DNA of 64,000 nucleotides, from NCBI GenBank assembly GCA_023053685.1, contig JALIGW010000021.1:15091647-15155646 (forward strand), given 5' to 3'. Under the pieces are notes generated by a model. That model searched no databases. It was not told the origin of the DNA and was given only the letters and a program-made list of their open reading frames with translations. Below are positions 1-63,998 of this stretch, in pieces (the stretch's first letter is position 1; every line of letters begins with the position of its first letter). The position numbers and the translations under genes were made by a program. The DNA is from Diadophis punctatus similis. Taxonomy: Eukaryota > Chordata > Lepidosauria > Squamata > Dipsadidae.

Positions 1-3000
1 AATTCCTTGCTCTCTCAAAATTTCAATCTCTTTTAGGTTTCCTTGTTCATCTAATATTTCTTCATACTTGACCATTTTATGTATATCTGTTGTGGTGGGA
101 TAGGTAGTCGCCTCCATGCTTGAAAACCATATCGGGATTTCTTTGTAGTGTTGATGTTTTATCTTGGCCCATATTTTATATAATGACTCTCTGGTTTTAT
201 GTTTTTGAAAATAGGAGTGTGTTTTGTGTTTTTCATCCCATAACAATCCAAGCCATCCTACCTGTAGATCATGTCCCTCGAGCGTTAATATTCTTTTATT
301 TTGAATTTGAATCCAATCAGTTACCCATTGCAATATTGCTGCTTGATAATAAGTTTCCCAATCTGGAAGTCCAAAGCCCCCTTGCTCTTTATTATCCTGT
401 AAATATTTTAGTCTAATTCTTGCCTTTTTCCCTGCCCAAAAAAATTTGGATATCATTTTATTTAAATTTTCAAAATATTTTCTATCTAATTTAATTGGTA
501 TCGTTTGGAACAGGTACAATATTTTTGGTAACACTGACATCTTAATAGTCGAAATCCTCCCTATCAATGAAATGGGTAGTTTGGTCGATTTTTCCAAGTC
601 TTTTTCTATTTGTTTATTCAATTCTATATAATTATCATTCTTGATTGTTGTGCATTTAGCCGTTAGTGTTATACCTAAATATTTAGTTTTCTTAACAACT
701 TGGATTCCTAATTTATCTTCTAATTCCTGAATTTGTTTATTTGGCAAATTTTTTGTTATTATTTTGGTTTTATTTTTATTAATTTTTAAGCCTGCTACTT
801 TTCCAAATTTATTTATTTCTTCTAATAATTTTGGTCCAACCTCTACCGGGTTTTCTATATTAAAGACCATGTCGTCCGCAAAAGCTTGGAGTTTGTTCTC
901 TTGTCCTCTAATTTTAAGTCCTTCAATGTTTGGGTTTTGCCTAGTTTGCTGTAGTAACGTTTCTAGAGTGAATATAAATAGCAAGGGGGACAGTGGACAT
1001 CCTTGCCGTACTCCTTTTTGAATATCAAATTTATCTATTATATCTTGATTTATAATTATCTTAGATGTTTGTTTCGAATATAGAGTTCTAATCATCCTAA
1101 TATATTTGGGGCCAAAATTTGTAATCTCTAATTTTTTTATGAGAAAGTCCCAATTTAAATTATCGAAGGCTTTTTGGGCATCGAGGAACATGAGAGCTAC
1201 AGGTTTTCCTGGATTTGTCTTATAGTACTCTAATATACCCATGATCGTTCTCGTGTTGTTTCTAATATTTTTGTTTGGAAGGAAACCGTTTTGGTCAGGG
1301 TGTTTTTATTATGTTTTTTAATCTTTCCGCCATTATTGTCATGAAAATCTTATAGTTCACATTCAGCAGCGAGATTGGCCTGTAATTTTGTATCTTCTGC
1401 TTTCCTGTTTTGTCTTTGGGAATTAGTGATATTGTTGATTCTGCCCAGGTTTTGGGAATTCCCCCTTTGTTTAAAACTTCATTGTATGTTACTAGTAATA
1501 GTTGTTTTAAAGAGTTCTGTAGTTCTTTGTAGCACTCAGCTAATATACCATCTGGTCCAGGTGTTTTATTGTTTTTTTGTTTTTTATGGCTTTTTCCAGT
1601 TCTGAAAGTGTTATTTCTATCTGAATCTGTTATTGGTGTATCATTAGCTTGTTGCAAATATGTTTGTATATCATCTTCCCTTATTTCCTCTTTTTTATAT
1701 AATTCACTAAAGTATTTGAGTATTATATCTTTTTTCTCCTCTATCATTATTTTTACATCACTGTTCTCATCTTCTAATTGTTGTATGTGTCTTTCTTCTT
1801 TTTCCTTTCGTAATTTATAAGCTAACCACCTGCCTGGCTTATTGGCATTTTCAAAATAATTTTGTTTTGCTGTTTTAATTTTCTGTGCCACTTCCTCTTG
1901 TGTCAATAAGTTAATTCTATGTTTAATTAAAACCTTTTCTTCTCTAATTTTATCGTTTAATGGTTCAATTTGTTGTTTATATTTTAATTCTCCCATCTTT
2001 TTTTGCAGTTCATTAATTTGTTTATATTTATTTTTATTTCTCCTTATAGTGTATGTTGTAGTTACTCCTCTTATATAAGCTTTTGTAGTGTCCCATAAGT
2101 TCTGAATCGTGTTATCATTATTCCAATTCTCCTTCATAAAAAAACCTAACTCTTTTTCCATGTAATTAATATAATTCTTTTCTTTTATTATCACCTGGTT
2201 CATAAACCATCTCTTATTTGCCCTTTTCCTCCCTTTTATTGTGAAAACTATAGGATTATGGTCTGCCCATATATTTGGTTTTATTTCAATTTCTTGCATA
2301 TTATTCAGTGTTTCTATATCGGTCCAAACCATGTCTATTCTCGACCAGGAGTTTTGTGGGGTAGAGTGGTATCTATATTGATTTTCATATAGATGGTTTT
2401 CTCTCCAGGCATCTCTAAGATTAAGTTCCCTAGCCAAATCAAAAAATTCACATGGTAATGTCTTTCTTTCGTGGTATTTTTTATTCACTGATTTATAATC
2501 CAGTTTATTGTCTAGTACAGCATTGAAATCTCCCACTATACAAATATTTTCTTTCTCTAGTTTAACTATTTGTTCATGTAATTCCTTGTAGTATTCTTTT
2601 TGTTTACTATTAGGGGCATAAATAGTTATAACTAACATTTTTTTTGGTTTATTGAAATCTCTATCATAAGTGTTCTACCTTCTTTATCTTGAAATATTTG
2701 TTTTGGTTGTAACCAATCTTTAACATATACTGCAATTCCTCTTTTTTTTTAAATCATCCAATGATGTAAACAATTTCCCTAGTTTTTGTACTTCTAATAA
2801 TTTAACATGTTCTTTTTTGACGTGTACCTCCTGCAAACAAATTGTGTCTAAATTTTGTTTTTGTAGTTTATTGAAAGTTTGTCTTCTTTTAATCAGCGAA
2901 TTGATTCAATTTATATTGACTGATAGGATTTTAGCTACATTTTCCATTTTATTGTTTTACTGTTGCTCTAGTTGTTCTTACGCTCCGAGTCTCTATTTGG

Positions 3001-5400
3001 GTCTTACTTTGTGCTTTCTCTAACTTCTCTCTTTCTTCTGTACTTTGTTCCTCTTGACTTTGTGTTTCTATTTCTGTACTACTCTCTCCTTCTAATTCTA
3101 GGTATTGCTCAATAAATTGATCTGCTTTCTCCAGTGTGTCTATTCTTATTTTTTTATCCTTCCATGTGACCAGAAGTCCTTCTGGCACTAGCCATCTAAA
3201 TGGTATTCCTCTTCTTATTAATTTTACTGAGAGATATTGAAAGTCCCTCCTTTTGTCCCTTATTCTTTTTGGTATCTGTTTCAATATTATAATATCCTTT
3301 CCTTTGTAATTTATTTGTCCTGTCCTTGTAATTCTATAAATCTCATCTCTTATGTGCTTTTTCGTAAATTTAACATTGATTTCTCTAGATAATTTATGTT
3401 TCCTTATATAGTTATTCTGGACTCTATAAATCTCATCAATGTTAGTTTTTATTCCTTCTTTATCTACTTGAAGGACTTCTGCAAGGATTTCTGACAGTAA
3501 GTTTAAAGTATCTTCTTCCTTTTCTTCTAAAACATTTTGAAATCTCAGATAAGATGCTTTTTCGAATTCGAGCTGTGAAATTGCCCCCTCCAACTCCCTA
3601 TTTATCATTCTCAATTTTTCTTGTTGCTTCCTGTCTTTTTTCCACCTTCTGTTTTTTCCACTATTGTTTTTATTTGTTGTTCATGATTAGCTACTATTTC
3701 TTCTGTATTTTCCATTTTATTATCTAATTTCTTAATATCTCCCTTGACCTCTTCAAAATTCCCTTTCGTTTCCTCATGGTTGTTTTCTATTGTTTCTTGT
3801 GTTTTTGTCATTTTTCCCTGTGATGCAATCATAAATTCCTGTATTCTATCAAGTGAGGCCTGCATAGATTATAAGGATGGTACATGTCCCTGTTTCTCTA
3901 TTGTTGTCATTTCTGTTAATAGTCTTTGTCCTGCCGGTGATGGTGCTGTTGAAGCTGTTCTCTTTATAGTTTTTGTCACCGTAGTTGAGGACATTTGTAC
4001 TTTTGTAAAGAAATTATAATTTTTAAATAAATTATTCCACACTTTCATATAACCTCTTCGTGACTTCCATTTCTCCTTTCTTTCTATTAATTATTGACTT
4101 ATGCCCTTTTATATCTTATTCACCAATCAATAGCAATATTCTGAGTCCACGATTAACAATATTAACAATATTCTAATTATTGTATTATTTATAATTCTTA
4201 ATTCCAAATTCCTATATATTGTTTTCTAAAACAATTAATCAAATCAATCAATTTCTATGGTTATCAATCAATCAGTCAGTCTATCAATACAGTATCTTAC
4301 AATTACTTATCACTATATATTAAATTTAACCTTTGATAAATGCTTCAATGTTTCTTTTAAACCAATTGAAAATAGCTATATTGTTATTATTTTGTTACTC
4401 AGTTAAACATTAAGTATAAGTCAAAATTATATATTTCAATCACAAAGAGTTCCTTTTCTTTTCCTTATACAACTATTGTCCAGAGATGTATTCTTTTTTT
4501 CCCCACAAAAAAAATCAATATATTCTCAGTTAGTTTTTCAAAATGTCGTCTGTTTCAAGAACTGCAGTCACTGTCTTTTTTGTGTGTGTGTTCTCAAATT
4601 GTGTTCCTTTATTTGTCTCTGGAGTGTATCTCCTCTTTCTGTAGCAAATCAAAAATTAAGCAGCAGTCTCAAATGCAAGTTTCGAATGCAATAGTTTCAA
4701 GTGTGTATTCCAATCTTTATATCAATCTTCGGCCATAGTTGTTAAAAAGTATCTCCTTTTCTAGTCTTCAGCTCTTTCCAAGATGTCGCTGTCAGAAAAC
4801 TCAGTGTCACTGTTACAGTCTCTTTCTTACCGGCTTGCTTCCACAGAAATAACAAAGTCAATGCTTTCACTGTTCTTGCGTTTTCCTTATTATTCAAACC
4901 CCAAAAGGTCTCGATATTAAAGTTAACAACATTTATTTTTTAATCCTTCTCCAATCCTTTTTTTTTACAATATCCTCTCTTATAACTCCTTACCGCTCAT
5001 GTGCCGCCCGTTCCTCTCAGGAGACTATCACTTTTCCGCCTTTGCTGTTCCGTCTCCGATTCCAGTGGGTTTCAGCACTTTCGAGGCTTGGTAGGAAAAG
5101 TTTGTCAAGCGTTTACCGTTTTACTCTCGCTTTTCTTCCTCTACGTCAAGATCAAAACGCCATGTCTCTGGATCGTCTTCAATCGCCAATCTCTTTCGTG
5201 CCTGTTATCGGGGTTTCCACCTATTACAGCGGGAAATAGCACCATCCCTCGCTGCAGTTCAGTGTCCCCCTTCTTTCTGCGATATTCTCCAAAGAATCGC
5301 ATGCCGCTTTCGGCTTCCAGAAACACAAAAAGTCAGGGCAAAGTTCGCAGTTAGCTTTCTTCGCTCCGCTCCATCATAGCGCCGCCCCGGAAGTCCCTGC
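1..5400 (-). mobile_element. L1-type LINE (5' end to mid-ORF2; cut by window edge)
   Basis: A minus-strand non-LTR retrotransposon in an SLBP intron. 5395-3870 is a GC-rich to AT-rich 5' region. ORF1 covers about 3865-2949 and is broken by a frameshift near 3611; it has a charged N-terminal part and an RNA-binding part with RRGIPFRWLVPEGL. ORF2 starts before 2638 with an APE-type endonuclease (GDFNAVLD near 2520, ADHNPIVF near 2250). It continues into reverse transcriptase: NYRPISLLN near 1370 and FADDMVF near 870. The RT frame is broken near 1295. It is a degenerate copy; whether the 3' end survives is not visible. Confidence 0.9.
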
Positions 5401-5653: not shown

Positions 5654-5758
5654 CTTGCCATTTCTCGGTTGACGTTAGTCCTCATTTCATCTTCTTCAAC
5701 TGCACTCCCCCAGTCCGAGCATCTCGAATGGGGCTTGTGACCCTCTGGGGTTCTGAAA
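5654..5758 (-). CDS. SLBP: SLBP exon 3
   Basis: 105 bp, acceptor ttcacag, donor ATGGCAAG|gtacag. It encodes FRTPEGHKP and then [20 protein letters not shown], ending REMA plus AG (human continues RYKRKLL). This is the segment around the phospho-degron of human SLBP (SFTTPEG). The TP threonine is kept; the preceding threonine is replaced by arginine. Confidence 0.93.
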
Positions 5759-8700
5759 CTGTGAACACCAAGTTGCAGGAAAAACAAAGTAGCAGCTTTG
5801 TCATAATATTTAAAACACACAACATAGCGTACCCCATCTCAACTGCGTCGCAGGTGAAGCAACACAATCCACAATGTATTACTTAACCCTTCATGTATCA
5901 TGAAGTGCTTTTGACTTACTCTAGGCAGAACAGTGCTTATCATCCATCATCTGTTTGGGATACCACCAGTATGCTACTTTAAAATATTTAGTAGTGTTAA
6001 AATATTAACAGGAACTTAACATTTTATGGCCACCTCTGCCTTATGTAGAACTTAACTATGCTTAATAGTGAGGAATTATTTCTGTACACCCACCTCTCTG
6101 ATCTGCCATCTGCCAGACTGTACGAATCGTAGTCAGTAGTTGGGTCACTGGGCTCGTGCGTATTCCTGTGCGTCCCATCTGCATCGCGCTTCCTGCCTTG
6201 ACTCCATGAAGCGGTTGATCTGCGAAGAGGCAATGAAAAAGAACAAACAGTCAGGGAAAAGAAGTTACAATTCATCGGTCCTCCAAATTAGAAGCAAAGT
6301 TGCAGAAGCTATATAGGTCAAGCTGGCCTGGGGATCAGCCATTTTGAATTGTTCCCAGCTCTTGAATCCAGGCAGTCCTCGACATATGATCACAATTGAG
6401 CCCAACATTTCTTAATAGTGCTTAATAGTGAGGAATTATTTCTGTACACCCACCTCTCTGATCTGCCATCTGCCAGACTGTACGAATCGTAGTCAATGGT
6501 TGGGCCACTGGGCTCGTGCGTATCCCTGTGCTTCCTGCCTTGACTCCATGAAGCGGTTGAACTGCGAAGAGGCAATGAAAAAGAACAGTCAGGGAAAAGA
6601 AGTTACAATTCATCGGTCCTCCTAATTAGAAGCAAAGTTGCAGAAGCTACATAGGTCAAGCTGGCCTGGGGATCAGCCATTTTGAATTGTTCCCAGCTCT
6701 TGAATGCAGGCAGTCCTCGACTTATGACCACAATTGAGCCCAACATTTCTTAATAGTGCTTAATAGTGAGGAATTATTTCTGTACACCCACCTCTCTGAT
6801 CTGCCATCTGCCAGACTGTACGAATCGTAGTCAATGGTTGGGCCACTGGGCTCGTGCGTATTCCTGTGCTTCCCATCTGCATCGCGCTTCCTACCTTGAC
6901 CCCATGAAGCGGTTGATCTGCGAAGAGGCAATGAAAAAGAACAGTCAGGGAAAAGAAGTTACAATTCATCGGTCCTCCTAATTAGAAGCAAAGTTGCAGA
7001 AGCTACATAGGTCAAGCTGGCCTGGGGATCAGCCATTTTGAATTGTTCCCAGCTCTTGAATCCAGGCAGTCCTCGACATATGATCACAATTGAGCCCAAC
7101 ATTTATTAATAGTGCTTAATAGTGAGGAATTATTTCTGTACACCCACCTCTCTGATCTGCCATCTGCCAGACTGTACGAATCGTAGTCAATGGTTGGGCC
7201 ACTGGGCTCGTGCGTATTCCTGTGCTTCCCATCTGCATCGCGCTTCCTACCTTGACCCCATGAAGCGGTTGATCTGCGAAGAGGCAATGAAAAAGAACAG
7301 TCAGGGAAAAAAAGTTACAATTCATCGGTCCTCCTTATTAGAAGCAAAGTTGCAGAAGCTACATAGGTCAAGCTGGCCTGGGGATCAGCCATTTTGAATT
7401 GTTCCCAGCTCTTGAATGCAGGCAGTCCTCGACTTATGACCACAATTGAGCCCAACATTTCTTAATAGTGCTTAATAGTGAGGAATTATTTCTGTACACC
7501 CACCTCTCTGATCTGCCATCTGCCAGACTGTAAGAATCGTAGTCAATGGTTGGGCCACTGGGCTCGTGCGTATCCCTGTGCTTCCTGCCTTGACTCCATG
7601 AAGCGGTTGATCTGCGAAGAGGCAATGAAAAAGAACAGTCAGGGAAAAGAAGTTACAATTCATCGGTCCTCCGAATTAGAAGCAAAGTTGCAGAAGCTAC
7701 ATAGGTCAAGCTGGCCTGGGGATCAGCCATTTTGAATTGTTCCCAGCTCTTGAATGCAGGCAGTCCTCGACTTAACGACTGCAATTGAGCCCAACATTTC
7801 TTAATAGTGCTTAATAGTGAGGAATTATTTCTGTACACCCACCTCTCTGATCTGCCATCTGCCAGACTGTAAGAATCGTAGTCAATGGTTGGGCCACTGG
7901 GCTCGTGCGTATCCCAGTGCTTCCTGCCTTGACCCCATGAAGCGGTTGATCTGCGAAGAGGCAATGAAAAAGAACGGTCAGGGAAAAGAAGTTACAATTC
8001 ATGGGTCCTCCTAATTAGAAGCAAAGTTGCAGAAGCTACATAGGTCAAGCTGGCCTGGGGATCAGCCATTTTGAATTGTTCCCAGCTCTTGAATGCAGGA
8101 AGTCCTCGACTTAACGACTGCAATTGAGCCCAACATTTCTTAATAGTGCTTAATAGTGAGGAATTATTTCTGTACACCCACCTCTCTGATCTGCCATCTG
8201 CCAGACTATACGAATCGTAGTCAATGGTTGGGCCACTGGGCTCGTGCGTATCCCTGTGCTTCCTGCCTTGACTCCATGAAGCGGTTGATCTGCGAAGAGG
8301 CAATGAAAAAGAATAGTCAGGGAAAAGAAGTTACAATTCATCGGTCCTCCTAATTAGAAGCAAAGTTGCAGAAGCTACATAGGTCAAGCTGGCCTGGGGA
8401 TCAGCCATTTTGAATTGTTCCCAGCTCTTGAATCCAGGCAGTCCTCGACATATGATCACAATTGAGCCCAACATTTCTTAATAGTGCTTAATAGTGAGGA
8501 ATTATTTCTGTACACCCACCTCTCTGATCTGCCATCTGCCAGACTGTACGAATCGTAGTCAATGGTTGGGCCACTGGGCTCGTGCGTATCCCTGTGCTTC
8601 CTGCCTTGACTCCATGAAGCGGTTGAACTGCGAAGAGGCAATGAAAAAGAACAGTCAGGGAAAAGAAGTTACAATTCATCGGTCCTCCTAATTAGAAGCA

Positions 8701-11700
8701 AAGTTGCAGAAGCTACATAGGTCAAGCTGGCCTGGGGATCAGCCATTTTGAATTGTTCCCAGCTCTTGAATGCAGGCAGTCCTCGACTTATGACCACAAT
8801 TGAGCCCAACATTTCTTAATAGTGCTTAATAGTGAGGAATTATTTCTGTACACCCACCTCTCTGATCTGCCATCTGCCAGACTGTACGAATCGTAGTCAA
8901 TGGTTGGGCCACTGGGCTCGTGCGTATTCCTGTGCTTCCCATCTGCATCGCGCTTCCTACCTTGACCCCATGAAGCGGTTGATCTGCGAAGAGGCAATGA
9001 AAAAGAACAGTCAGGGAAAAGAAGTTACAATTCATCGGTCCTCCTAATTAGAAGCAAACTTGCAGAAGCTATATAGGTCAAGCTGGCCTGGGGATCAGCC
9101 ATTTTGAATTGTTCCCAGCTCTTGAATCCAGGCAGTCCTTGACATATGATCTCAATTGAGCCCAACATTTATTAATAGTGCTTAATAGTGAGGAATTATT
9201 TCTGTACACCCACCTCTCTGATCTGCCATCTGCCAGACTGTACGAATCGTAGTCAATGGTTGGGCCACTGGGCTCGTGCGTATTCCTGTGCTTCCCATCT
9301 GCATCGCGCTTCCTACCTTGACCCCATGAAGCGGTTGATCTGCGAAGAGGCAATGAAAAAGAACAGTCAGGGAAAAAAAGTTACAATTCATCGGTCCTCC
9401 TTATTAGAAGCAAAGTTTCAGAAGCTACATAGGTCAAGCTGGCCTGGGGATCAGCCATTTTGAATTGTTCCCAGCTCTTGAATGCAGGCAGTCCTCGACT
9501 TATGACCACAATTGAGCCCAACATTTCTTAATAGTGCTTAATAGTGAGGAATTATTTCTGTACACCCACCTCTCTGATCTGCCATCTGCCAGACTGTAAG
9601 AATCGTAGTCAATGGTTGGGCCACTGGGCTCGTGCGTATCCCTGTGCTTCCTGCCTTGACTCCATGAAGCGGTTGATCTGCGAAGAGGCAATGAAAAAGA
9701 ACAGTCAGGGAAAAGAAGTTACAATTCATCGGTCCTCCGAATTAGAAGCAAAGTTGCAGAAGCTACATAGGTCAAGCTGGCCTGGGGATCAGCCATTTTG
9801 AATTGTTCCCAGCTCTTGAATGCAGGCAGTCCTCGACTTAACGACTGCAATTGAGCCCAACATTTCTTAATAGTGCTTAATAGTGAGGAATTATTTCTGT
9901 ACACCCACCTCTCTGATCTGCCATCTGCCAGACTGTAAGAATCGTAGTCAATGGTTGGGCCACTGGGCTCGTGCGTATCCCTGTGCTTCCTGCCTTGACC
10001 CCATGAAGCGGTTGATCTGCGAAGAGGCAATGAAAAAGAACGGTCAGGGAAAAGAAGTTACAATTCATCGGTCCTCCTAATTAGAAGCAAAGTTGCAGAA
10101 GCTACATAGGTCAAGCTGGCCTGGGGATCAGCCATTTTGAATTGTTCCCAGCTCATAAATGCAGGCAGTCCTCAACGACTGCAATTGAGCCCAGCATTTC
10201 TTAATAGTGCTTAACAGTGAGGAATTATTTCTGTACACCCACCTCTCTGATCTGCCATCTGCCAGACTGTAAGAATGGTAGTCAATGGTTGGGCCACTGG
10301 GCTCGTGCGTATCCCTGTGCTTCCTGCCTTGACTCCATGAAGCGGTTGATCTGCGAAGAGGCAATGAAAAAGAACAGTTAGGGAAAAGAATTTACAATTC
10401 ATCGGTCCTCCTAATTAGAAGCAAAGTTGCAGAAGCTACATACGTCAAGCTGGCCTGGGGATCAGCCATTTGGAATTGTTCCCAGCTCTTGAATGCAGGC
10501 AGTCCTTGACTTCTGACCACAATTGAGCCCAACATTTATTAATAGTGCTTAATAGTGAGGAATTATTTCTGTACACCCACCTCTCTGATCTGCCATCTGC
10601 CAGACTGTAAGAATCGTAGTCAATGGTTGGGCCACTGGACTCGTGCGTATCCCTGTGCTTACTGCCTTGACTCCATGAAGCGGTTGATCTGTGAAGAGTC
10701 AATGAAAAAGAACAGTCAGGGAAAAGAAGTTATAATTCATCGGTCCTCCTAATTAGAAGCAAAGTTGCAGAAGCTATATAGGTCAAGCTGGCCTGGGGAT
10801 CAGCCATTTTGAATTGTTCCTAGCTCTTGAATGCAGGCAGTCCTCGACTTAATGACTGCAATTGAGCCCAGGCTTTAAGTTGCTAAGTGAGAAATTTGTT
10901 GAGTTACGTTTTGCCCATTTTACGATTTTTCTTGCCACGTTTGTTAAGTGAATCCCTGCAGTTGTTAAGTTAGTAACCCGGTTGTTAAGTGAATCTGGCT
11001 TCCCCATTGGTCAGGAGGTCGCAAAAGGGGATCACATGACCCTGCGACACTGCAACGGTCATAAATATGAATCAGTTGTCAGGCATTAGAAAATGGATCG
11101 CGTGACCGTTTTTGATCCCCCCAAAATGCCCCTTTTTGGGGGGGGTGGCTTATTATTTTCGGGGTGCAGGCGGGGCTGGCTGCAGGACACACCACTTACT
11201 GGAGTTTGGCAGCTCCGTGGTCTCCCGGCTAATCTGTTTATTAGGGGAAAAAATGTTGCATATTACAGAAACTCTTCTCGGGAGGCAAGCAATTAACAAG
11301 TTATTGCAGCGAGAAGAGTTTCTGCAGTATGTCTTCCTGGCGGTGCTTGGCTGTTTAAATAGATTGGGAAGAGAGTGCACGGCTATCTTTCCCCCCCCCC
11401 TGCCACCGTGAGACTTGCAAAAAAGTCTTCCTGGGGGCACTTGGCTGTTTAAATAGGTTGGGAAGAGAGTGCACGGTTTTCTCTCTCCCACCCGCCATCC
11501 CCCCCCCCGGCTCTCGAGCGAAGCGGGAGGGGCAAGAAACTCTTGCAGGCTGCCTGAGGAAGAACTGACAGCCAAACTTCTAGCTCAGTGGCAGAAGCAG
11601 CCAGGCACGCACTTCCTTGTCCACCCCCCCCCTCTCTCTCGTGTGCCCCTCTCTCTCGGCAGTGAGGAAGGTGGAAGAGTGCATGTAAGACAAAGCACCA

Positions 11701-14700
11701 GAAGGAACCTTTTGGCTGAATGCACGAAATTTTTCCCCTTTCGCTCCAAGAGTCTCACGAACACTCATTTTTGGCAGAGTTTTGAAAAGAAAGATTTCTT
11801 GCATTCAGCATGTTTGGAAAAGACAAGGAAGCGCAGAGAGCGAGCAAGGGAGGAGGCAGCGGAAGGCAGAGATGAAGGGGCGGCAAAAGGAACGGGCTGG
11901 ATGTGCCCGTCTGCTGCTCAAGCCCTGCGCTTTGGCTCTCTGTACCTGACCGGCCTCGGAGACAGGAGACAGCCCCTCTGCCGAGAGAGAGGAGGCACAT
12001 TTGGAAGAGACAAGCATGTGCCCAATTGCTTCTGCCGCTGAGCCCGGGTGGAAGTTTGGCTTCTAGCCGGGCTCAGGCGAGGAACGGGTGGCTGTTTCTA
12101 AAGGGGATTCCCATGCCACTCTTTTGGCCGGGGGAGAGAGAGCAAACGAGCGGCGGCTACCCGTACATCCCGTGGGACTGGCTCGGCTGCTCTGGGCTGC
12201 CTCTGGCAGTGTTTTGAAACGCGCTCCTGCCTGCGTGGAGGCAGGGATCGATGCTCCCCCCCTTTTCCTCACGGGCAGAAGCGCGTTTTAAATTGCTGTA
12301 GGCAGATTCCAGAGGAGCCGAGCTGGTCCCGCGGGGTGTGCACACACCCACCTCTCGCTTGCTCTCTCTCTCTCTCTCTCTCTCCCGGCCAAAAGAGTGG
12401 CCGCCCCACAAAGAGCGGCTCCTGGCTTATTTCAAGGCATGTCCCGAAAAACCCCATGGGGCTTATTTTCAGGACATGTCTTATTTTCGGGGAAACACGG
12501 TAGACTCCTATCAGTCTGTTTCAGGCTCGGCTACAGTACAGAAACTGCCTTGGTCGCCCTGATGGATGATCTCTGGCAAGCCCGGGATGGGGGAAATTCC
12601 TCCATCCTGGTGCTACTTGACCTTTCAGCGGCTTTCGATACCATCGACCATGGTATCCTTCTGCATCGTCTCGGCGAGTTGGGAGTGGGAGGCACCGTTT
12701 TGCGATGGGTCTCTTCTTATCTCGCCGACAGGATGCAGTCGGTGTTAACAGGAGGGCAGAGGTCGTCTCCTAGGCCCCTGACATGTGGGGGTGCCTCAGG
12801 GCTCGGTCCTCTCGCCCATCCTGTTCAACATTTACATGAAACCACTGGGGGAGATCATCCGTAGACACGGGGTGAGTTTTCAACAGTACGCTGATGACAC
12901 CCAGCTGTACATCACCACCCCGTCTCAATTCAGGGAGGCAGTCGATGTAATGTGCCGATGCCTGGACGACGTTAGGACCTGGATGGGGAGAAACAGACTC
13001 AAACTCAACCCCAACAAGACTGAATGGCTCTGGATATTGCCTCCTAAGGACTATGACAACTGTCCCTCCTTGGTTCTTGAGGGAGGAAAATTAACTCCCT
13101 CGGAACAGGTTCGCAATTTGGGAGTCCTCCTAGATCCACAGCTAAAATTAGACCAACATCTTGCAGCTGTGGCTAGGGGGGCTTTTGCACAGGTTCGCCT
13201 GGTGCACCAATTGCGACCATACTTGAAGAAGGAGGCTCTGCTCACGGTCACTCATGCCCTTGTCACCTCGATTGGACTACTGCAATGCGCTCTACATGGG
13301 GCTACCCTTGAAGAGTATTTGGAGACTCCAGCTGGTGCAAAATGCGGCTGCGCGTGCTGTGGTGGGTGTGTCAAGATACACCCACGTAACACCCATACTC
13401 CGCCAGCTGCATTGGCTGCCCATTGGTCTCTGGGTACAATTCAAGGTGTTGATCATCTTTAAAGCCCTACATGGCTTAGGACCAGGCTACCTCCAGGACC
13501 GCATTCTGCCTCACACTTCCCTCCGACCGGTTAGGGCCCACAGAGTGGGTCTCCTCCAGGTCCCGTCAGCCAAACAATGCCGGCTGGCGGGCCCTAGGGG
13601 GAGGGCCTTCTCTGTGGGGGGGCCCGTGCTCTGGAACCAACTTCCCCCAGAGATCCGAATTATCCCGACCCTGCCGGAAAGCCGTCAAGACACGGCTCTT
13701 CCTGCAGGCAGGGGTTTGAGACTAGTTTTTATCCGAGATCTCCCCCTGTATGTATGTTGTTGAATGTCTTAACTTTTTTAATTTTTAAAACTGTTTTTAA
13801 ATGAAGTTTGTTTAGTGTTCTTTTAAAATGTTGTATACGCTGCCCTGAGTCCTTAGGGCAATGGTTCCCAACCTGTGGTACGTGTACCACTAGCGGTACG
13901 CGAGGGCCTTCCAGGTGGTACGCGAACACTTTCGGGGTCATGAACGATTTTTAGTTAGTTATTTTTTACTTCACAAAAATGTTTACTGCCTAACACAAGA
14001 TAATCTGGCAACGATTTGCAACTGTTGTCACATGCCACCCACCTGGTCCCAGTGGCCCGAGAATCCAGTTGCTGGATGCGCGGGGCCAAAAAAGGAACGG
14101 TACAATTATCGAAATAAAGTGATATCTGATCAAATTTAGTTTCTCTGGAACCAGGTGGTACGCGGCGACTGTACGGGACCTCAAAGTGGTACTCGATCAC
14201 AAAAAGGTTGGGAACCACTGCCTTAGGGAGTAGGGCGGCATAGAAGAACCTAATAATAAATAAATAAATAATAAGCCGCCACTGGAACCAGAATTTATGT
14301 CGCTGAGTGAGACAGTTGACAAACAAGTAGTCCCGTGCTCGTATCCAATTCTGTCGTGGTCGCTAAGCGAATCAGGTGATTGTTACGTGAATCCAGCTCT
14401 CTCCATTGACCCTGCTTTGTTTTTAGGGCGATTGTAACTTCCAATGGTCACTAAGGGAGCGGCTGTAAAGCGAGGACTTCCTTATAATGAGGGCTTTGTG
14501 GAGGGGGAAAAAGCAGAAGTGGGAGGGAGGCCAAAAGAGAAACGCATTTTCAGCAGCAATTCCTCCTCTTCCTCCTATAAAGTCCTACACACAGTTTTTA
14601 TGAACTACCACCCAGAGCCGGGCAGCTTAAATAATAATAAATTTTTAAAACTTTCCTCCCCAAAGAAAGCTCTGGCCGTGTTTCCCCCCCACCCCCTCAG

Positions 14701-15217
14701 CCTGCATCTTTTGGGCGAGATGCGATCCATCTTGAGGGGGTTTTTTTGTTGTGTTTTACCTCACCTGACGGCTCTCTATTGTATCCACTTAGGATTGTGT
14801 GTATATACGTGTTTGTACACACACACATACACAGAGTTTTTATCTGAATTTAAATCAAGCGACTGTCCAGCTTTTGGCATCCAAGGCCTGGCATCCGAGA
14901 CCCCCCCCCCAACAACCACCCTGTGAGGAAGGGGCGACCCCCCCATTAACCAGAGGATCGAGGTTTGAGGGGGTGTTTCGACACGGGGCTCTCCTCGGGC
15001 AATCCCCGCCAATATCGGGCTGAGCTGAGGCGCCTCATTTGGGTCACAAGGAAGAGAGAGGGGGGGAGGAAAGGCCTCCGGACCTCCGCGGACGGAAGAA
15101 GGCCGATAGAGCCCCTCCGAGGCAGCCACAGGACGTCGAGGCTCCACGCGGCGACCCTCCCGGCCCTTACCTGCTACGAGTGCGGCCGGCCAAGGGGCTT
15201 CGCTGGCGAAACGACAT
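5654..15217 (-). CDS. SLBP: SLBP, histone RNA stem-loop binding protein (exons 1-3, 3' part off the left edge)
   Basis: SLBP binds the 3' stem-loop of replication-dependent histone mRNAs and acts in their processing, export, translation and S-phase-limited expression. Only the N-terminal regulatory region is here; the RNA-binding domain exons would lie to the left of the window. Seen: exon 1 encodes [15 protein letters not shown] (human starts MACRPRSPP), exon 2 encodes [11 protein letters not shown] (human WSLGRKRRADG), and exon 3 encodes [20 protein letters not shown] (human [20 protein letters not shown]). All junction phases agree: exon 1 ends AG, exon 2 is A...AG, exon 3 is T...AG. Exon 2 occurs in 14 tandem, splice-competent copies. 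An L1 lies in the intron after exon 3, in the same orientation. Human residues are recalled from memory; identity is secure from exon 3, and exon 1 follows from residue pattern and phase. Confidence 0.88.
6094..6219 (-). CDS. SLBP: SLBP exon 2 copy 1 (long form, nearest exon 3)
   Basis: 126-bp copy with the acceptor CTTCGCAG and donor AGAG|gtgggt. It encodes [16 protein letters not shown] followed by an acidic, Tyr/Ser-containing stretch ending LADGRSE. It differs from the other copies at SDPTT (others SGPTI). It is 335 bp from exon 3 and is the last copy in transcript order. The long form resembles human SLBP most, so it is probably the ancestral length. Confidence 0.85.
6454..6561 (-). CDS. 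SLBP: SLBP exon 2 copy 2 (short form)
   Basis: 108-bp copy with first base T (junction codon S); open frame, intact splice signals. Confidence 0.8.
6792..6917 (-). CDS. SLBP: SLBP exon 2 copy 3 (long form)
   Basis: 126-bp copy, open frame, intact splice signals. Confidence 0.8.
7148..7273 (-). CDS. SLBP: SLBP exon 2 copy 4 (long form)
   Basis: 126-bp copy, open frame, intact splice signals. Confidence 0.8.
7504..7611 (-). CDS. SLBP: SLBP exon 2 copy 5 (short form)
   Basis: 108-bp copy, open frame, intact splice signals. Confidence 0.8.
7843..7950 (-). CDS. SLBP: SLBP exon 2 copy 6 (short form)
   Basis: 108-bp copy with R to W (KHWDTHE); open frame, intact splice signals. Confidence 0.8.
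8182..8289 (-). CDS. SLBP: SLBP exon 2 copy 7 (short form)
   Basis: 108-bp copy with a synonymous TAC/TAT difference in the SYS segment; open frame and intact splice signals. Confidence 0.8.
8520..8627 (-). CDS. SLBP: SLBP exon 2 copy 8 (short form)
   Basis: 108-bp copy whose first base is T instead of A, giving S instead of R at the junction codon when preceded by AG. Counterpart of copy 2, which has the same change. Confidence 0.8.
8858..8983 (-). CDS. SLBP: SLBP exon 2 copy 9 (long form)
   Basis: 126-bp copy with RDADGK, open frame, intact splice signals. Counterpart of copy 3. Confidence 0.8.
9214..9339 (-). CDS. SLBP: SLBP exon 2 copy 10 (long form)
   Basis: 126-bp copy keeping the RDADGK codons; open frame and intact splice signals. 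Counterpart of copy 4. Confidence 0.8.
9570..9677 (-). CDS. SLBP: SLBP exon 2 copy 11 (short form)
   Basis: 108-bp copy, open frame, both splice signals intact. Counterpart of copy 5. Confidence 0.8.
9909..10016 (-). CDS. SLBP: SLBP exon 2 copy 12 (short form)
   Basis: 108-bp copy, open frame, acceptor CGCAG, donor gtgggt. Counterpart of copy 6. Confidence 0.8.
10243..10350 (-). CDS. SLBP: SLBP exon 2 copy 13 (short form)
   Basis: 108-bp copy with open frame and both splice signals; D to H in the DYDSY segment. Counterpart of copy 7 in the 2066-bp duplication, with 5 bp missing from the adjacent unit. Confidence 0.8.
10581..10688 (-). CDS. SLBP: SLBP exon 2 copy 14 (short form, nearest exon 1)
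   Basis: 108-bp exon copy, first in transcript order. The acceptor is CACAG rather than CGCAG. Changes include R to S before KHRD and P to S in HESSGP. The frame is open and the donor is gtgggt. It is the most diverged copy at the exon-1 end and is followed on its upstream side by a longer MITE remnant rather than another unit. Confidence 0.8.
10834..11095 (+). mobile_element. Truncated TA-type palindromic MITE next to the array
   Basis: Starts CAGGCAGTCCTCGACTTA, like complete copies elsewhere (for example 31734-32117), and runs through the typical internal sequence (TTGTTAAGTGAATC, GGTCGCAAAAGGGGATCAC), but lacks the closing inverted end. The first 40 bp of this element are what every exon-2 unit carries at its right side. 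Confidence 0.75.
11096..12503. repeat. GC-rich composite sequence with internal duplication and a MITE end
   Basis: Contains a near-duplicate of about 60 bp (11331-11390 and 11425-11485, around CTTGGCTGTTTAAATAG), C and G runs, a (CT)n run at 12362-12384, and at 12441-12503 a DNA-element end (CTTATTTTCGGGGAAACACG) that abuts the LINE. No gene recognised on either strand. Confidence 0.5.
12504..14270 (+). mobile_element. L2/CR1-like LINE, reverse transcriptase and 3' end
   Basis: Degenerate ORF2 with RT landmarks in order: [15 protein letters not shown] (about 12535), [15 protein letters not shown] (12620), [17 protein letters not shown] (12785), [11 protein letters not shown] (12885), [10 protein letters not shown] (13005), and a C-terminal [12 protein letters not shown]...[12 protein letters not shown] block (13270-13370). 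Frames change several times (near 12785 and 13254), so it is dead. The 3' end is GGGCGGCATAGAA with an AATAAATA tail at 14270, after a 362-bp insertion. Confidence 0.85.
13859..14220. mobile_element. hAT-type MITE nested in the LINE 3' end
   Basis: 362 bp with terminal inverted repeats CAATGGTTCCCAACC and GGTTGGGAACCACTG, flanked by a perfect 8-bp duplication CCTTAGGG (13851-13858 and 14221-14228). The LINE sequence continues on both sides. Confidence 0.9.
14271..14930. other. Spacer with a degenerate DNA-element end
   Basis: 14290-14490 contains motifs of the TA-type MITE family (GTCGCTAAGCGAATCAGG, GTCACTAAGGGAGC, GCGAGGACTTCCTTATA). The rest, including a short CA run near 14815, shows no gene. 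Confidence 0.4.
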
Positions 15218-15700
15218 GACGAGAGTGACGATGCTCCCCCGACGCCTCCAACCTCGCAACTGAGGCGCGTCAGGTAGCGCCGCGCGCGCCAACCCAACCG
15301 GGCGCTACCACCTCGAAAAAGGGGGGGATCCTAGAAGGGAGCCTTTTCTCCCTTTCACTGCTCTGGGACGGAAGACCCAGCCGCCTTCCTCCGAAGAAAT
15401 TTTCTGCGCTTCCGAGTTCTTACCCTGAGGTAGAAAAGGCCTCGGGGCGGCTTTTATCCTCCTCTCTTCAGAACCAGAATCCCCCCTATAAGCGGCGTGG
15501 CGATGGTTTTCTCCGCCGCGCGGAGCCCCGCCCCCCTCTTCCTCCCGCCCTCCTTTTGCCTGTTTGAGCGAACGGCGCTTTGGCGGGAAAAGTTTGCAAG
15601 CCCGGACGGGTCTCTGCAACACAATGTTCTTCGCGGCTTTGCGGGATCCCCCCTGCCCCGCTCGCTTGCTTTTCTCGGCTGAAGCTGCTTCCCGACGAGG
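14930..15700 (-). promoter_or_regulatory. CpG-rich SLBP promoter / 5' UTR region
   Basis: GC- and CpG-rich block around and upstream of SLBP exon 1. At 15579-15590 is TTTGGCGGGAAA, a textbook E2F site, about 360 bp upstream of the ATG. E2F control fits a gene needed in S phase. The transcription start is inferred, not seen. Confidence 0.6.
15171..15217 (-). CDS. SLBP: SLBP exon 1, coding part
   Basis: An ATG at 15217-15215 opens 15 codons plus AG, followed by the strong donor CAG|gtaagg (gt at 15170-15169). It sits in a CpG-rich block and its phase fits exon 2 exactly. The RxRSP start resembles human SLBP. The 5' UTR boundary is not defined. Confidence 0.75.
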
Positions 15701-15959
15701 GATCCATTGCTCGTTCCTCATTGAGCAATTTTGCCCATTTTTGTCTTTGTCTCCCAAGGCTTTTTGCGAACGGGATATTCCTGCACGCTTTGGAATTCTG
15801 CCACCTTGCTAATATTTCGTGTTTGCAAGAAAACGGGGCTACGGGCAGGCAGAATCATTGCATGCTGGACCCCGAAAGGGTGGTCGCATGCCCAGCTGCT
15901 GCTGCTGCAGGAGTCATGCGGATATCACCACTGTCAAACTATTCACTAAGGCTGCATTG

Positions 15960-16215
15960 CAAGAGCCGAGGTGGCACAGCGGTTAGAGGCAGTACTGCCG
16001 GCCACCTTAGCTGGCTGTGATCCACAGGACACAGCGGTTCAAATCTTACCGGCTCAAGGTTGACTCAGCCTTCCATCCTTCCAAGGTAGGTAAAATGAGG
16101 ACCCAGATTGTTGGGGGCAATATAACTATACATTGCTCACTGGTGTAAACCGCTTAGAGAGTGCTTGCACTGTGAGGCGGTATATAAATGTCACTAATAA
16201 ATAAATAAAATAAAT
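15960..16215 (+). mobile_element. tRNA-derived SINE
   Basis: Starts GAGCCGAGGTGGCACAGCGG (box A-like) with box B GGTTCAAATC at 16036-16045. It continues with AAAATGAGGACCCAGATTGT and AAACCGCTTAGAGAG and ends in GGTATATAAATG plus an AATA-rich tail. Confidence 0.85.
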
Positions 16216-16224
16216 TGCTATTAC

Positions 16225-16500
16225 TATTAGTCTTCTCATCGTTCCTATCCCATCTCCTCCCACTTATGACTGTATGACTGTAACTTGTTGCTTGTATCCT
16301 TACGATTTATATTACTATTGTTTTCCTGATTGCTTATTTGTACCCTATGACAATCATTAAGTGTTGTACCTCATGATTCTTGACAAATGTCTCTTTTCTT
16401 TTATGTACACAGCATATGCACCAAAGACAAATTCCTTCTGTGTCCAATCACACTTGGCCAATAAAGAATAAAGAATTCTATATAGAATAGAATAGAATTC
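16225..16500 (+). mobile_element. LINE 3' tail
   Basis: A non-coding 3' region ending CACACTTGGCCAATAAAGAA followed by a short TAGAAT-type tandem tail, as in squamate LINE 3' ends. Family not assigned. Confidence 0.55.
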
Positions 16501-16539
16501 TAGGGTTAAATCTTTCTATATATTGTGAAATTAAAGATT

Positions 16540-18780
16540 TTTTGTCATGCCTTCTGACTGCCAGTTCTGGTTACCTTCTGGAACCAGGCTATCAAAGAAA
16601 CAACCCAACCTCTCACAAGGGAAGCTGTGTAAGGACTTTACTTAAGAAGATGAGCCCAAACATACTGCAGGAACCCAGAACACCAGAAAAAGAAAATGGA
16701 GCATCTATACAACACATTCCACCCAAATGGATACCCACACAACTTTATCAAAAAGTCCCTGAAACCAAAAGAGCCAGCAACCCCAGAAGAAAAAAAACAG
16801 CAGTCATGTACAACATACAATGTAAGGACTGCAACAACCACTGTGTAGGACAAACTGGCAGAAGGCATTCACAAACACCAACTGGCCATCAGAAGGCATG
16901 ACGAAAATTCTTTCATTTCACAACAGACAGGCAGATTTAAACCTAGTTTCAATTGGGGAAAATGTGACACTGTAGGGATTGGGGCCCTGTAAGGGTGTGT
17001 GTGCAAAAAACTCCCTGCCCTAAACAGCCCCTCATGCCTACATGAGATCACTCAGTTCACACGGCCAGAATGATTTACCTTCTCTGGCTGGTACGTGATC
17101 TCATCTAGGTTGCAACAACACAATGCTCATTAAAAAGTTGGTGGGGGGAAGATGATGGGGGGGATTCACCAATGAGAATGCTGTTTCTCTTTCCTACCTT
17201 TTGCTGCTTGGAAAACTATATAAGCAATAAACACTGCGAAGGCAGTTAGACATCTCAACACCCTGGAATGATTTGTCTCTAATTCCATCATGACACAATC
17301 CTAGACCAGGCCAAGTCCAAAAATGCCAGAGAATTTCTAGAAGCCTGGCATCCTGACAAATCAGCCATCAATAGACACATAGACATCAATAACCATCAAT
17401 AGACTATGCAAAAGAGATAATCAACCAGCCCAAAAGAGAACAAAAAAACTCCAGCACCTCTCCACCAGTAATTAGCACTCAGATCAGCATAAATTAACTC
17501 CAAGGTCAATTTCAGATCAACAGTCAAGTACCTTATTTTTCGGAGTATAAGACGCACCTTTTTACCCCCCAAAAGAGGGTGAAAACATGGGTGCGTCCAA
17601 TATGCCGAATGTAGCCCCACCGAACCACCTCCACCCTTTGGCCTCTGCCTCCCAGCAATTTACCTCCTTGCAGCAAGCAATTGATTATCAGCTTCCTGAC
17701 TGTCAGCTGAGTGAAGCTGCAGGCTGGCCGGCCAGGTGCTAAACTGAAACTAATATAAAGCTGCAAGGAGGTAAATTGCTGGGAGGGAGAGACAGGCAGA
17801 ATTTTATTTTCTTGTGCTATTCAGACTGCTGAAACTGGATGCAAGGAGGTAAGTCAATAACTATAAATGTCTGTAGAATGTTCAAATTATTAGACTTATT
17901 TTTAGACTACTTTATTATTGTTCTAGACAACTTAACAAAATGAAGAAGCTTTTTAAAATAAATTCTTGCTCTGAAGAGGCCCAGTGCTTTTGTATCTTCT
18001 TTTAAATAGCAGAGAATAATGTATACTTCCAGAAAGCCACATCAATTTTAACAGTATCTGTACAAGTATAGTCTGAAATGTAACAGTGTCCTGTTTTAGT
18101 ATTAAGATAAGGCAGCTGAGTTAAATCCTGACTTAGTCATGTTTGGAGTAGATCTATTTAAATAATTGGGAGGAGTTAGTGTGACTATATAAGAAAACTT
18201 TCTGGCATTAATATACTGCCATAATGTACATTTCTCCAATTCTTTGCTATTTCTATGGGTCAGGCACACATGCACAGAAATACCACAGCAAAGTGTATAT
18301 CGTCTGTACTGTTTGCTGTTAGCCAAATTGCTGGAAGGCAGAGGCAGAATTTTTCTCCCTTGTTTTCCTCCCCCAAAACTAAGGTACGTTTTATACTCTT
18401 TAAGTATATATTTATACTTAAAATATGGGTAAGCAATACCTCAATCAAGAAACTGCCAAAGAGCCATCAGTAAACAGCCCAACGAAATAATCTCTAAGAC
18501 TGCCTCCACCCACACAGACAGGCAAGTCACCAGAATATAAACTGACAGCAAACAGCATAATGTTAATGTTTTGATGTTTGATTTTGTAATGATAATGGTA
18601 CCTAGTTTGGGTAATGAAAATCTGAAAGAAAACAAGGACACTCAGAGAGCACCAAGGACCCCACAGTCCTCTTTCTCCCCCTCCTCCACTCCACAATCCC
18701 CATTCCCTTGTAGCACTGATGACGTTACCTAGTTGGGTCATGAAACGTCTGCAAGAAAACAAGCAAGCTCAGGAAGCACG
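16540..18780 (+). mobile_element. Penelope-like retroelement, 3' part with GIY-YIG module
   Basis: 16542-16900 reads RKKTAVMYNIQCKDCNNHCV followed by GQTGRR, the start of a Penelope GIY-YIG endonuclease (YxIxCxxC...YVGQTxR; the Y of YVG is C here). At about 17285-17380 a broken frame reads LDQAKSKNAREFLEAW then H-DKSAINRHIDIN. The element is interrupted at about 17530-18410 and ends with the tail GATGACGTTACCTAGTTGGG at 18718-18780. Degenerate. Confidence 0.75.
17530..18410. mobile_element. DNA-type element with degenerate inverted ends, inside the Penelope copy
   Basis: The left end reads GGAGTATAAGACGCACC...ACCCCCC and the right end, in reverse, AAGAGTATAAAACGTACC...GGGGG. About 870 bp. 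No transposase frame. Exact ends and target duplication are uncertain. Confidence 0.55.
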
Positions 18781-19180
18781 CAGCAGCCCTCACTCACATT
18801 AGTGTGTTATTGTGCCATGATGTAACATAAACTACCAGAGCTTAATAATATGAACTTCTGTACCTTTGAAAGATTAGTGAGCCCTGAATATCCCAGCCAC
18901 CATTCCTCCATTTTCAAAAGATTTTTTTTGCAATGTTTATTTCAATATTTACAGTTCTAGAACTTCTAGATTTAATGTTGGAGAGCTATTGCTCCTCAAA
19001 CTTTTGTTCTAGCTTTAAAAAACGCCCTGCATTCATTTGCCTGCTTCCATCCATTTATTTATTCATGTATGTTTAAGCCACTCATCTCCACCTGCCAGAT
19101 TGCCAGTTATAAAATAATAAATACCGTAAAAACAAATTAAGAAGCATATGTGTTTTAATCTCGGAACTGGACCACGCACG
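18781..19180. other. Spacer before the TACC3 promoter
   Basis: A short LINE/SINE-like tail near 19050-19130 (CATTTATTTATTCATG...AAGCCACTC); otherwise nothing recognised. No TMEM129 exon seen. Confidence 0.4.
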
Positions 19181-19562
19181 CGCAAAACGCACACAGGCGT
19201 CAAACCGCTCGCCGCTTCCGGCCTTCCGCATCTAACTGCGGGCCACGCCTCCCTGGCAAGCTCCTCCCTCCTCCGGGGAGGGGGGGTTTCGCGGATGTCG
19301 TTCGGCGCATGCGAGAGCGCCTGGGCGGCTCCGCCCCGGCGCCCCATGCGTGACGTCAGTCCATTCCTGGCTCGCCATTGGCGGAGAAGCGGCGACGTTC
19401 AAATTTGAAACGGGAGCTGGCGTTGAGGGAGGAGGGTCGGGCAGCGGCGTTCGGTGAGGGAGCCTGGCTGAGGCGAGTCTCCGGGCCATTCCCAGGTCGG
19501 TTTCTTCCCCCGCGTCCCCGCCCCCGGCTGAGGGTGGAGGGGCTCCGAGCCCGCTTCCTCAG
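19180..19562 (+). promoter_or_regulatory. TACC3: TACC3 promoter and non-coding exon 1
   Basis: CpG-rich. It contains a CRE TGACGTCA (19351-19358), an inverted CCAAT box ATTGG (19377-19381) and a palindromic CHR, TTCAAATTTGAA (19398-19409). CCAAT plus CHR is the known arrangement of G2/M genes bound by NF-Y and DREAM/MuvB, and suits TACC3, a mitotic gene. Exon 1 ends CTCAG|gtgagt at 19562; its start is inferred to lie shortly downstream of the CHR. Confidence 0.75.
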
Positions 19563-20110
19563 GTGAGTTCGTGGCGCGGCGCCTCGGGCGGACGGGGCTC
19601 GCGGGTCAAGCGGGTCGTGTGAAGGCAGCACCGGACTTCCCCCCCCCCGCTCTCTGGCCCCCCGTGTCCGTCGCCCAGGCCCCGAGGCTGTCTAACAAGC
19701 GGGGTTCCCCCTTGGGAAGAGCCGTGGGGATCCTGCTGGTGTGAGCAGACTCGGATGTCCTAAAATTATATATATACATTACATACATACATACGCATAA
19801 TTTTAATGTAAATATAATATAATATAATTACAAAATTTATATGGTCGCCTACTCACACATCGCAGGCTACTCAAGGCGGCTTACAAAGATATAGAAACAC
19901 CATATAAAAGAAATTAAACAATAAAAAGAAAAATGATAAAATAGTAACCCTACACACAGACAGAGCCTGGTGACAACACACATTCCCGCAAAGCATTGAA
20001 TGGGCTCCATCCCTGCCTCTGGGTTCTAATTCAGCAAGAATGGAGGCTTGCAGCACTTGAAAGAAGGGCCACCTCCTGCCCGAGAAAATGGTGCAAATTG
20101 TTTATAAGTA

Positions 20111-20812
20111 CAGGTAGTCCTCGACTTACAACTGTTTGTGACAGATGTGAGCATTAATCTCACAGAGGAGATGTTTCATCTTTTCCCAGACATCAGGCAT
20201 TAGAAATGAAACCGCAGTTTAAAAGTCTAAGTAAAAATATTTATTTCGGTACAAAAACAATAAATCCTCATTTGTTTACATCTCTGATATAAAAATGTGT
20301 GTCTTCTCTCAATGGAAGACAGAGCAAGAAGGGTAGAGCGGAGATTGGAATGCACACATACATACAAGAACATATCAATCACGTGCTCAGGGATAAACCA
20401 TTATATTGAATAGGGATGCATCTCCCTGCATATACATGTAACAGGCAATAATCACACCGTGACAGCTTGTTTCGTGACCGTTGAAAGTTATAAGGGGCTT
20501 ATGACCATTTTTCACACTTAATGACCGTTGCAACCTTCCCCACGCCACCATCATGTGATTTATATGCAGATTTACATTCCACATTTATGACGGTCGTGGG
20601 GGTCACTGGAACCGTTTTGCAACCTTCTAACGAACAAGGTCCATGGAGGAAGTCAGATTCTCTTAACCGTGTTAACTAATTTAACAACTGCAGTGATTCG
20701 TTAATCAACGATAGCAAAGAAAGGCGTAAAATGGGGCAAAGCTCGCAACCAAATTCTCACTTAGCAACATACATGTTGGGCTCAATTGTGGTCGTAAGTT
20801 GAAGGCTTCCTG
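20111..20812 (+). mobile_element. TA-flanked palindromic MITE with an inserted element
   Basis: Ends CAGGTAGTCCTCGACTTA and (reverse) CAGGAAGCCTTCAACTTA, flanked by TA at 20109-20110 and 20813-20814. Interrupted at 20140-20462. Confidence 0.85.
20140..20462. mobile_element. Unclassified ~320-bp repeat, copy A
   Basis: Same family as 30769-31090 and 51648-51955. Starts with the stem TGTGAG/CTCACA and ends CACACCGTGA. Lies inside the MITE, with an imperfect 8-bp flanking duplication (CTGTTTGT / CAGCTTGT). Confidence 0.75.
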
Positions 20813-21480
20813 TACATTGAAAAAATGACCACCTCCTGCCCAACAAAGTTATGCAAATTATTTATAAATATCAAAATACTCGTAATTTATATATTTATAA
20901 ACTTGTAGCATACAGTAGGAGTCCTTGCTGCTCTTGGAACTTGGTTATTTTCTTGCAGGCATTTCATTAGCCAAACTAGGTAACATCACCCGTGCTAAAT
21001 GTATAATTATGAAAATTATTGTTACCTTGAATTAAGAGATTACAGAGTTGTAAAAAGAGAGTATTGTTGCCAATAATTTTCTTCCTGACCACAGAATGTA
21101 TTCTCCTCCAGGAAAATACCCTTAGGAAAAGAATCTGGCTCAAGCTAGAATTAGTTATTTTCCATTCTGTGTTTTAAAGGAGCATGGAGCCTTTGCTGAA
21201 AGGCCCTGTCCTGACCGCTGATGGGGAAAGCTTATTAATGCTGCCATCTTTGCAAATCTGAAGGGGATGCAGGTTTTTCATTCCTGCTCTTGAGTCCGGT
21301 TTCAAAACTGCTGCCAGCGGTGAATTAATTTAAAGAAATGAGGCGCCTGTCTTCAGAAGTTGTTGCATTCCGATGCTGCTAACCTGGACAGACAGAATTA
21401 TGAATCTGGGGATCTGGACTCCATCTGCTATCCTGAAGCAAAATTCTCAGATAATGTGCTTTACATGCTTTGCCTTTTAG

Positions 21481-21607
21481 GATGAATCGACCTGCTTTCA
21501 GTGGAGAAAATGCCGGTGAGGACATGGCGGCCACAGGCAGGACTTCTATCCTCCGGCTGTCACAGAAAGAAAACGTCCCTCCCAAAGGAATAGTGAAGCC
21601 TATGAAG
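21481..21607 (+). CDS. TACC3: TACC3 exon 2 (start codon at 21482)
   Basis: Acceptor CCTTTTAG; one base precedes the ATG. 42 codons ending in frame at AAG|gtacgc. Contains [11 protein letters not shown] with a KEN degron. Confidence 0.95.

Positions 21608-47839: not shown

Positions 47840-63998
<16,159 letters not shown>

Follow-up and report, generated by a model that had tools for sequence, protein, structure and literature searches.

Human SLBP exon 2, as described in PMC3764509, is a cassette exon that is normally included and whose skipping leaves the frame intact, as happens under replication stress; it carries the RKRR of the nuclear import signal. Duplication of exons in tandem is known from other genes, among them Drosophila hydra, most of whose duplicated exons are flanked by the transposon DINE-1 according to PMC9013439. 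Here we describe 14 head-to-tail copies of SLBP exon 2 on the minus strand of a 64,000-nucleotide stretch of the snake Diadophis punctatus similis (assembly GCA_023053685.1; contig JALIGW010000021.1, hereafter C124; C124:15091647-15155646), referred to below as the window. From the sequence, we consider it probable that these copies form a tandem array of exon-intron units in an SLBP paralogue under relaxed constraint and truncated at its 3' end (copy B), and that a neighbouring gene (copy A) supplies the ordinary SLBP. In the open-licence library searched, no paper pairs SLBP with snakes, nor the stem-loop binding protein with duplicated exons.

Structure of the exon 2 array

The best protein matches to exons 2-3 are the snake SLBP of Naja, Crotalus and Python, and the identification of gene and exon in an initial annotation of the window is upheld. 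The array runs from 10688 to 6094 (window coordinates), and each of its 14 units, about 338 or 356 bp long, comprises one entire exon 2 with its splice sites and flanking intron, the near-identical copies lying within 4.7 kb. Tandem Repeats Finder reported a single array at 6188-10870 (period 338, 13.6 copies), and the repeat search likewise gave 14 copies, starting 334-356 apart in its first family. As initially annotated, an exon scan showed 14 of 14 units to hold an exon devoid of stop codons, followed by a gtgggt donor and preceded by a CAG acceptor, which reads CGCAG everywhere except in copy 1 (CACAG). The features in window coordinates, all on the minus strand except the last, are as follows.

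15171..15217, SLBP-B exon 1, 47 nt coding, ending in AG; donor CAG/GTAAGG; 16/16 residues identical to the Naja naja SLBP model by tblastn
10581..10688, exon 2 copy 1, 108 bp, acceptor CACAG (exon scan)
10243..10350, exon 2 copy 2, 108 bp (exon scan)
9909..10016, exon 2 copy 3, 108 bp (exon scan)
9570..9677, exon 2 copy 4, 108 bp, equal to copy 10 over the columns compared
9214..9339, exon 2 copy 5, 126 bp (exon scan)
8858..8983, exon 2 copy 6, 126 bp (exon scan)
8520..8627, exon 2 copy 7, 108 bp, equal to copy 13 over the columns compared
8182..8289, exon 2 copy 8, 108 bp (exon scan)
7843..7950, exon 2 copy 9, 108 bp (exon scan)
7504..7611, exon 2 copy 10, 108 bp (exon scan)
7148..7273, exon 2 copy 11, 126 bp (exon scan)
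6792..6917, exon 2 copy 12, 126 bp (exon scan)
6454..6561, exon 2 copy 13, 108 bp (exon scan)
6094..6219, exon 2 copy 14, 126 bp, adjoining exon 3; matches copy A exon 2 from about 49 nt upstream onward
5654..5758, SLBP-B exon 3, 105 bp, beginning SFRTPEG, Thr to Arg relative to three snake proteins; donor AAG/GTACAG
6262..10154, higher-order repeat: 8328-10154 repeats 6262-8088 at a shift of 2,066 bp or six units
10834..11110, dispersed repeat element, no strand assigned, at the array's 5' edge (gene sense)

Nine of the array exons measure 108 bp and five (copies 5, 6, 11, 12 and 14) 126 bp, the longer form being that of Naja, Crotalus, Python and lizards and the shorter one lacking 18 bp located between two GGAAGC words. 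The 1,602 nt initially proposed to be gained by full inclusion are indeed the sum of the copies; relative to a gene with a single 126-bp exon, the gain is 1,476 nt (492 residues). The proposal that the lengths preserve the frame and that the phases match exons 1 and 3 was borne out: the exons are symmetric (phase 2-2), the AG that ends exon 1 and the T that begins exon 3 are both in phase with the copies, the frame is open across all 14 and any number of them would maintain it. The intervening introns, deemed long enough for splicing at an annotated length of about 230 bp, span 226-234 bp as calculated from the exon coordinates, and neither phase nor intron length forbids the inclusion of several copies, from which, as initially proposed, a series of isoforms of graded length might arise. 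Most copies carry RKRD or RKHR at the position of the human RKRR. All 14 donors received the same score (4.9) in a position matrix in which the donors of exons 1 and 3 scored 7.4 and 0.1, respectively. A search of Rfam gave no match at the gathering threshold; the plasmid collection gave none either, a search that is uninformative for snake DNA.

An array of this kind might be transcribed with only one copy, for instance the last, being selected and the others skipped, yielding a product of near-normal size. The in-frame skipping of human exon 2 (PMC3764509), the equal scores of the 14 donors in the position matrix and the presence of one exon 2 in database snake proteins (once per protein in the three snake SLBP proteins recovered) would all suit such a choice. 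Yet nothing in the array enforces it: exon lengths are multiples of 3 and introns measure 226-234 bp, so that mutually exclusive selection through the frame or through introns too short to splice was rejected. As this scheme further requires copy B to be used at all, we regard it as distinctly unlikely.

Three SLBP copies on one contig

The initial annotation, to which copies A and C were invisible because they and exons 4-7 of copy B lie outside the window, took the array gene for the SLBP of the animal. Searches of the animal's own assembly (1.78 Gb, 419 contigs, the window lying on a contig of 16 Mb) do not support this view and rejected the idea that the array gene is the only SLBP gene: copy B is a tandem duplicate, and copy A is complete with one exon 2. 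In a DNA search, the exon-bearing unit recurred outside the window at C124:15081023-15081326 and C124:15071214-15071539, and a map built from 50 kb read downstream of the window, with a search for exon 8 covering 70 kb, resolved three tandem SLBP copies on the minus strand, of which B bears the array. Their positions on C124 (minus strand) are as follows.

Copy B, first part: exon 1 at 15106863, then the array, exon 3 at 15097404, exon 4 at 15090463
Copy B, second part: exon 5 at 15090145, exon 6 at 15089117, exon 7 at 15082829-15082745
Fragment C: exon 1 at 15082084, one 108-bp exon 2 at 15081144, then the start of a second unit
Copy A: exons 1-8 from 15072981 to 15065410, with one 126-bp exon 2

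Within this one assembly, the unit is thus present 14 times in B, once plus part of a second in C, and once in A. Copy A, about 34 kb away from copy B, has all eight exons and an open frame of 756 nt including the stop (251 residues), its tail resembles that of Naja, and four polyadenylation hexamers (AATAAA/ATTAAA) lie within 1 kb past its stop; it is most likely the working SLBP. For copy B, neither a terminal exon nor a polyadenylation site was found. No exon 8 was seen behind it, the sole one detected in the 70 kb being that of copy A (E = 0.002; the next best of the best 25 matches, at 0.40, lies elsewhere), and the 1,707 nt between B exon 7 and C exon 2 contain no AATAAA or ATTAAA. Downstream of B exon 7, about 300 bp follow intron 7 of copy A before giving way to the promoter side of C, itself a fragment with no more exons before copy A at E < 0.5. 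Any transcripts of copy B, with no exon 8 or polyadenylation signal close by, would probably either lack stability or terminate within intron 7.

One way for copy B to acquire an end would be a read-through gene, in which transcripts run from B into exon 8 of copy A, so that the array would gain an entire C-terminus. The two exons to be joined, B exon 7 and A exon 8, lie on the same strand about 17 kb apart; the end of the one and the start of the other both fall on a codon border and are in phase. Such transcripts would, however, have to bypass the intervening acceptors, those of exon 2 in C and of exons 2-7 in A, and the junction of B exon 7 with an exon 2 is out of frame; we therefore judge this arrangement extremely improbable.

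A protein search of the genome (26 matches overall) revealed elsewhere only a more distant SLBP relative, at C112:185933317-185933750 on another contig, whose RNA-binding exons are about 68-70% identical to those of copy A and which we take to be, probably, the oocyte-type SLBP2. Pieces matching window positions 18404-19572, a GC-rich segment presumed to be the promoter side of TACC3, were found between C and A at C124:15077214-15078652 (98.8% and 88.1% identical), and the duplicated block therefore seems to extend past SLBP. In human, TMEM129 sits between SLBP and TACC3; in the snake, no TMEM129-like sequence was detected in the interval from SLBP exon 1 to the presumed start of TACC3 (15217-21500), the best match anywhere in the window having E = 1.3.

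Constraint on copy B and on the array

Through exon 7, the coding sequences of copies A and B differ at 18 sites, 14 nonsynonymous and 4 synonymous, as compared with an expectation of about 2.9:1 in the absence of constraint. When polarised by eye against the Naja, Crotalus and Python proteins (the Crotalus model lacking exon 4), 12 of the 14 amino-acid changes map to B and 2 to A (two-sided binomial, about 0.013). Exon 5 of copy B has 7 amino-acid changes and conserved residues are lost in exons 4-5, among them the last residue of KRKL, which is retained in exon 4 of copy A and reads KRKP in B; KRKL is described as a cyclin-binding and nuclear-import element (PMC3764509). Exons 1 and 6 show no difference between A and B, and the non-coding stretches are 90.7-98.1% identical. 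We note that both A (C124:15070894-15070790) and B (window 5758-5654) read SFRTPEG at a place where Naja, Crotalus and Python read FTTPEG. TTP is given as the SLBP degradation site in PMC3764509; its first Thr being Arg in both copies, even the intact copy A is without that Thr.

Nor was purifying selection seen on the array copies as protein. The array exons and their upstream introns vary to a similar degree (14/108 versus 33/188 sites; P = 0.33). Of the 14 substitutions in the exon copies, classified by hand from the alignment, 10 are nonsynonymous and 4 synonymous, the expected ratio being 2.5-3.3 to 1. The absence of stops on which the initial annotation relied holds but is weak evidence taken alone, as 14 substitutions without selection would leave the copies stop-free with P = 0.49-0.59. 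Likewise, the 4-nt splice core would have remained unchanged by chance with a probability of about 0.55.

Other observations weigh against a relaxed copy B. Its frame is open through exon 7 (235 codons with one exon 2, 727 with all 14), free of stops and frameshifts; the exons of the RNA-binding domain (5-6) are present and open, and exon 6, the RNA-binding core, is identical to that of copy A; the exon-1 region is 97.7% identical to its counterpart in A; and all splice dinucleotides inspected are intact. In the array, intron positions 1-23 after the exons are invariant (0/23 variable versus 33/188; P = 0.029). An unvarying run of 53 columns, the longest there is, covers the exon end and donor and exceeds chance expectation (P = 0.015 with gaps collapsed and 0.0008 uncollapsed; an earlier version of the alignment gave a 49-nt invariant run, P = 0.0096). 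The invariant donor side could mean selection on splicing, although these statistics are only suggestive because the columns are not independent, units exchanging sequence with one another.

A rival view is that copy B is a second functional SLBP carrying a long repeat domain, with several or all of the exon 2 copies spliced into its mRNA. Its product would reach up to 727 residues through exon 7, would end in intron 7 after 14 further codons or be spliced to a distant exon and, devoid of KRKL and of the C-terminal tail, might bind the histone hairpin as a stable protein or as a decoy. The frame open over 14 copies and exons 3-7, the identical exon 6, the intact promoter-side region and splice sites, the invariant donor side, the symmetric 2-2 exons and introns posing no obvious bar to splicing speak for it. 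The missing exon 8 and nearby polyadenylation hexamer, the neutral ratio of nonsynonymous to synonymous changes and the conserved residues lost in exons 4-5 speak against it, as does the failure of a protein search to recover a snake counterpart: among the 120 listed of 406 matches of 257-817 residues, no entry bears the name of a snake, some entries being nameless. That search scored the 7,989 candidates sharing most words, and its size range omits ordinary snake SLBP (about 250 residues), which came up in a search of about 178-565 residues only. On balance, we find a working repeat-domain SLBP unlikely. It is, in our estimation, very unlikely that copy B is expressed as a histone-hairpin binder with up to 14 nuclear-import-bearing modules and, through the loss of KRKL, no cyclin control; the same holds for the further suggestion that unequal exchange and splicing set the number of these modules, making of B a regulator of histone mRNA, or a decoy for it, that varies in length. 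We find it more plausible that the array is an oddity which the genome tolerates than that it encodes a giant protein.

Proteins of songbirds labelled "uncharacterized" (P0121, P0135, P0136, P0138, P0142, P0143 and P0145; 592-809 residues) contain the SLBP RNA-binding domain, and P0121 (Geothlypis trichas, 809 residues) has three SLBP-like domains in tandem.

Growth of the array and its place among known systems

About 40 bp of the dispersed element at 10834-11110 is carried in every array unit. The element matches 7 other places in the window outside the array (E of 9e-9 or better), and its core of about 46-50 bp has matches on many other contigs. In the alignment, the unit junction fuses the interior of the element to the flank downstream of exon 2, which indicates that the duplication broke inside the element. 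We propose that the element landed just upstream of exon 2 and provided one breakpoint of the unit, and that the array would then have grown by unequal exchange, by single units and by a block of six. The latter is suggested by a six-unit higher-order repeat that goes beyond the initial annotation: only 9 differences in 1,827 columns separate 6262-8088 from 8328-10154, and copy pairs 4/10 and 7/13 show none over the columns compared. Divergence among units reaches 6.9%, the value for copies 1 and 14 at the two edges. The six-unit block (2,066 bp) was duplicated later than the initial array.

Tandem arrays are prone to miscounting, and the pairs of copies without differences might also be seen as signs of an assembly artefact, alleles or collapsed or expanded repeat reads having created a false B/C/A arrangement or a wrong number of units. 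Units differing by up to 6.9%, copies A and B diverging by about 2-9% over aligned stretches, the location of all copies on one 16-Mb contig with no N in the window or the 50 kb downstream, and the fact that B is without exon 8 and C is a fragment make this decidedly improbable.

The single exon 2 unit of copy A is a mosaic: upstream it resembles copy 1, and from about -49 onward it resembles copy 14, except at sites private to either A or copy 14. C groups with copy 1 (support 0.83). A and copy 14 have two substitutions in common that none of copies 1-13 carries. At the first of these sites Naja and Crotalus have the residue of copies 1-13, and at the second Val or Ile. The two shared changes favour a collapse or conversion of A; the array may thus be older than the present state of A, which would be a collapsed or converted copy. 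The single unit of A may also be ancestral, as the mosaic would look alike under an ancestral unit or the collapse of an array.

In all likelihood, unequal exchange in a spare gene produced the array incidentally, and it may persist there at low cost. Its splice sites may still be kept because the units are young, because they are homogenised by exchange or because loss of a donor only would poison transcripts; were copy B transcribed, its splicing signals would be compatible with the inclusion of many copies. Should B be silent, the locus would clearly illustrate, in a natural setting, the origin of a tandem exon array at a breakpoint in a dispersed element and its growth by higher-order blocks, the array remaining splice-ready despite drift in the coding sequence; the sister gene alongside, with its single copy, would serve as a control. 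Should it be expressed, a protein of a length set by the number of repeats would take part in histone mRNA control. Annotators should treat SLBP in this snake as at least two genes.

Other repeats of the window include an L1-like element in intron 3 (1295-3680) and another RVT_1 fragment in intron 1 (12782-13459) of SLBP-B, both bearing reverse-transcriptase sequence, and low-complexity tracts (long TCTC, GAGA-rich and GGAG) at 57951-58568, 49125-49467 and 49969-50140.

By analogy, the array would be of the same kind as LPA KIV-2 and the tandem exon duplications. As in LPA KIV-2 (described in PMC11201333), whole exons and introns follow one another head to tail within a gene, in frame and with homogenised subtypes; the LPA unit, however, is about 5.6 kb long with two exons and its copies are translated, whereas the snake unit (338/356 bp) has one exon and belongs to a truncated paralogue. 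Exon copies in tandem are also found in OBSCN, NEB, UGT1A and Drosophila hydra (PMC9013439), those of hydra and UGT1A being first exons with alternative starts and that of the snake an internal symmetric exon. Mutually exclusive exons of the Dscam type similarly place homologous tandem exons between constant ones, but a pair of snake exons stays in frame and is separated by 226-234 bp. The closest parallel in exon identity is the human SLBP cassette (PMC3764509), which is the same exon in the same phase, present once in human and 14 times, mostly with RKRD or RKHR, in the duplicate gene of the snake.

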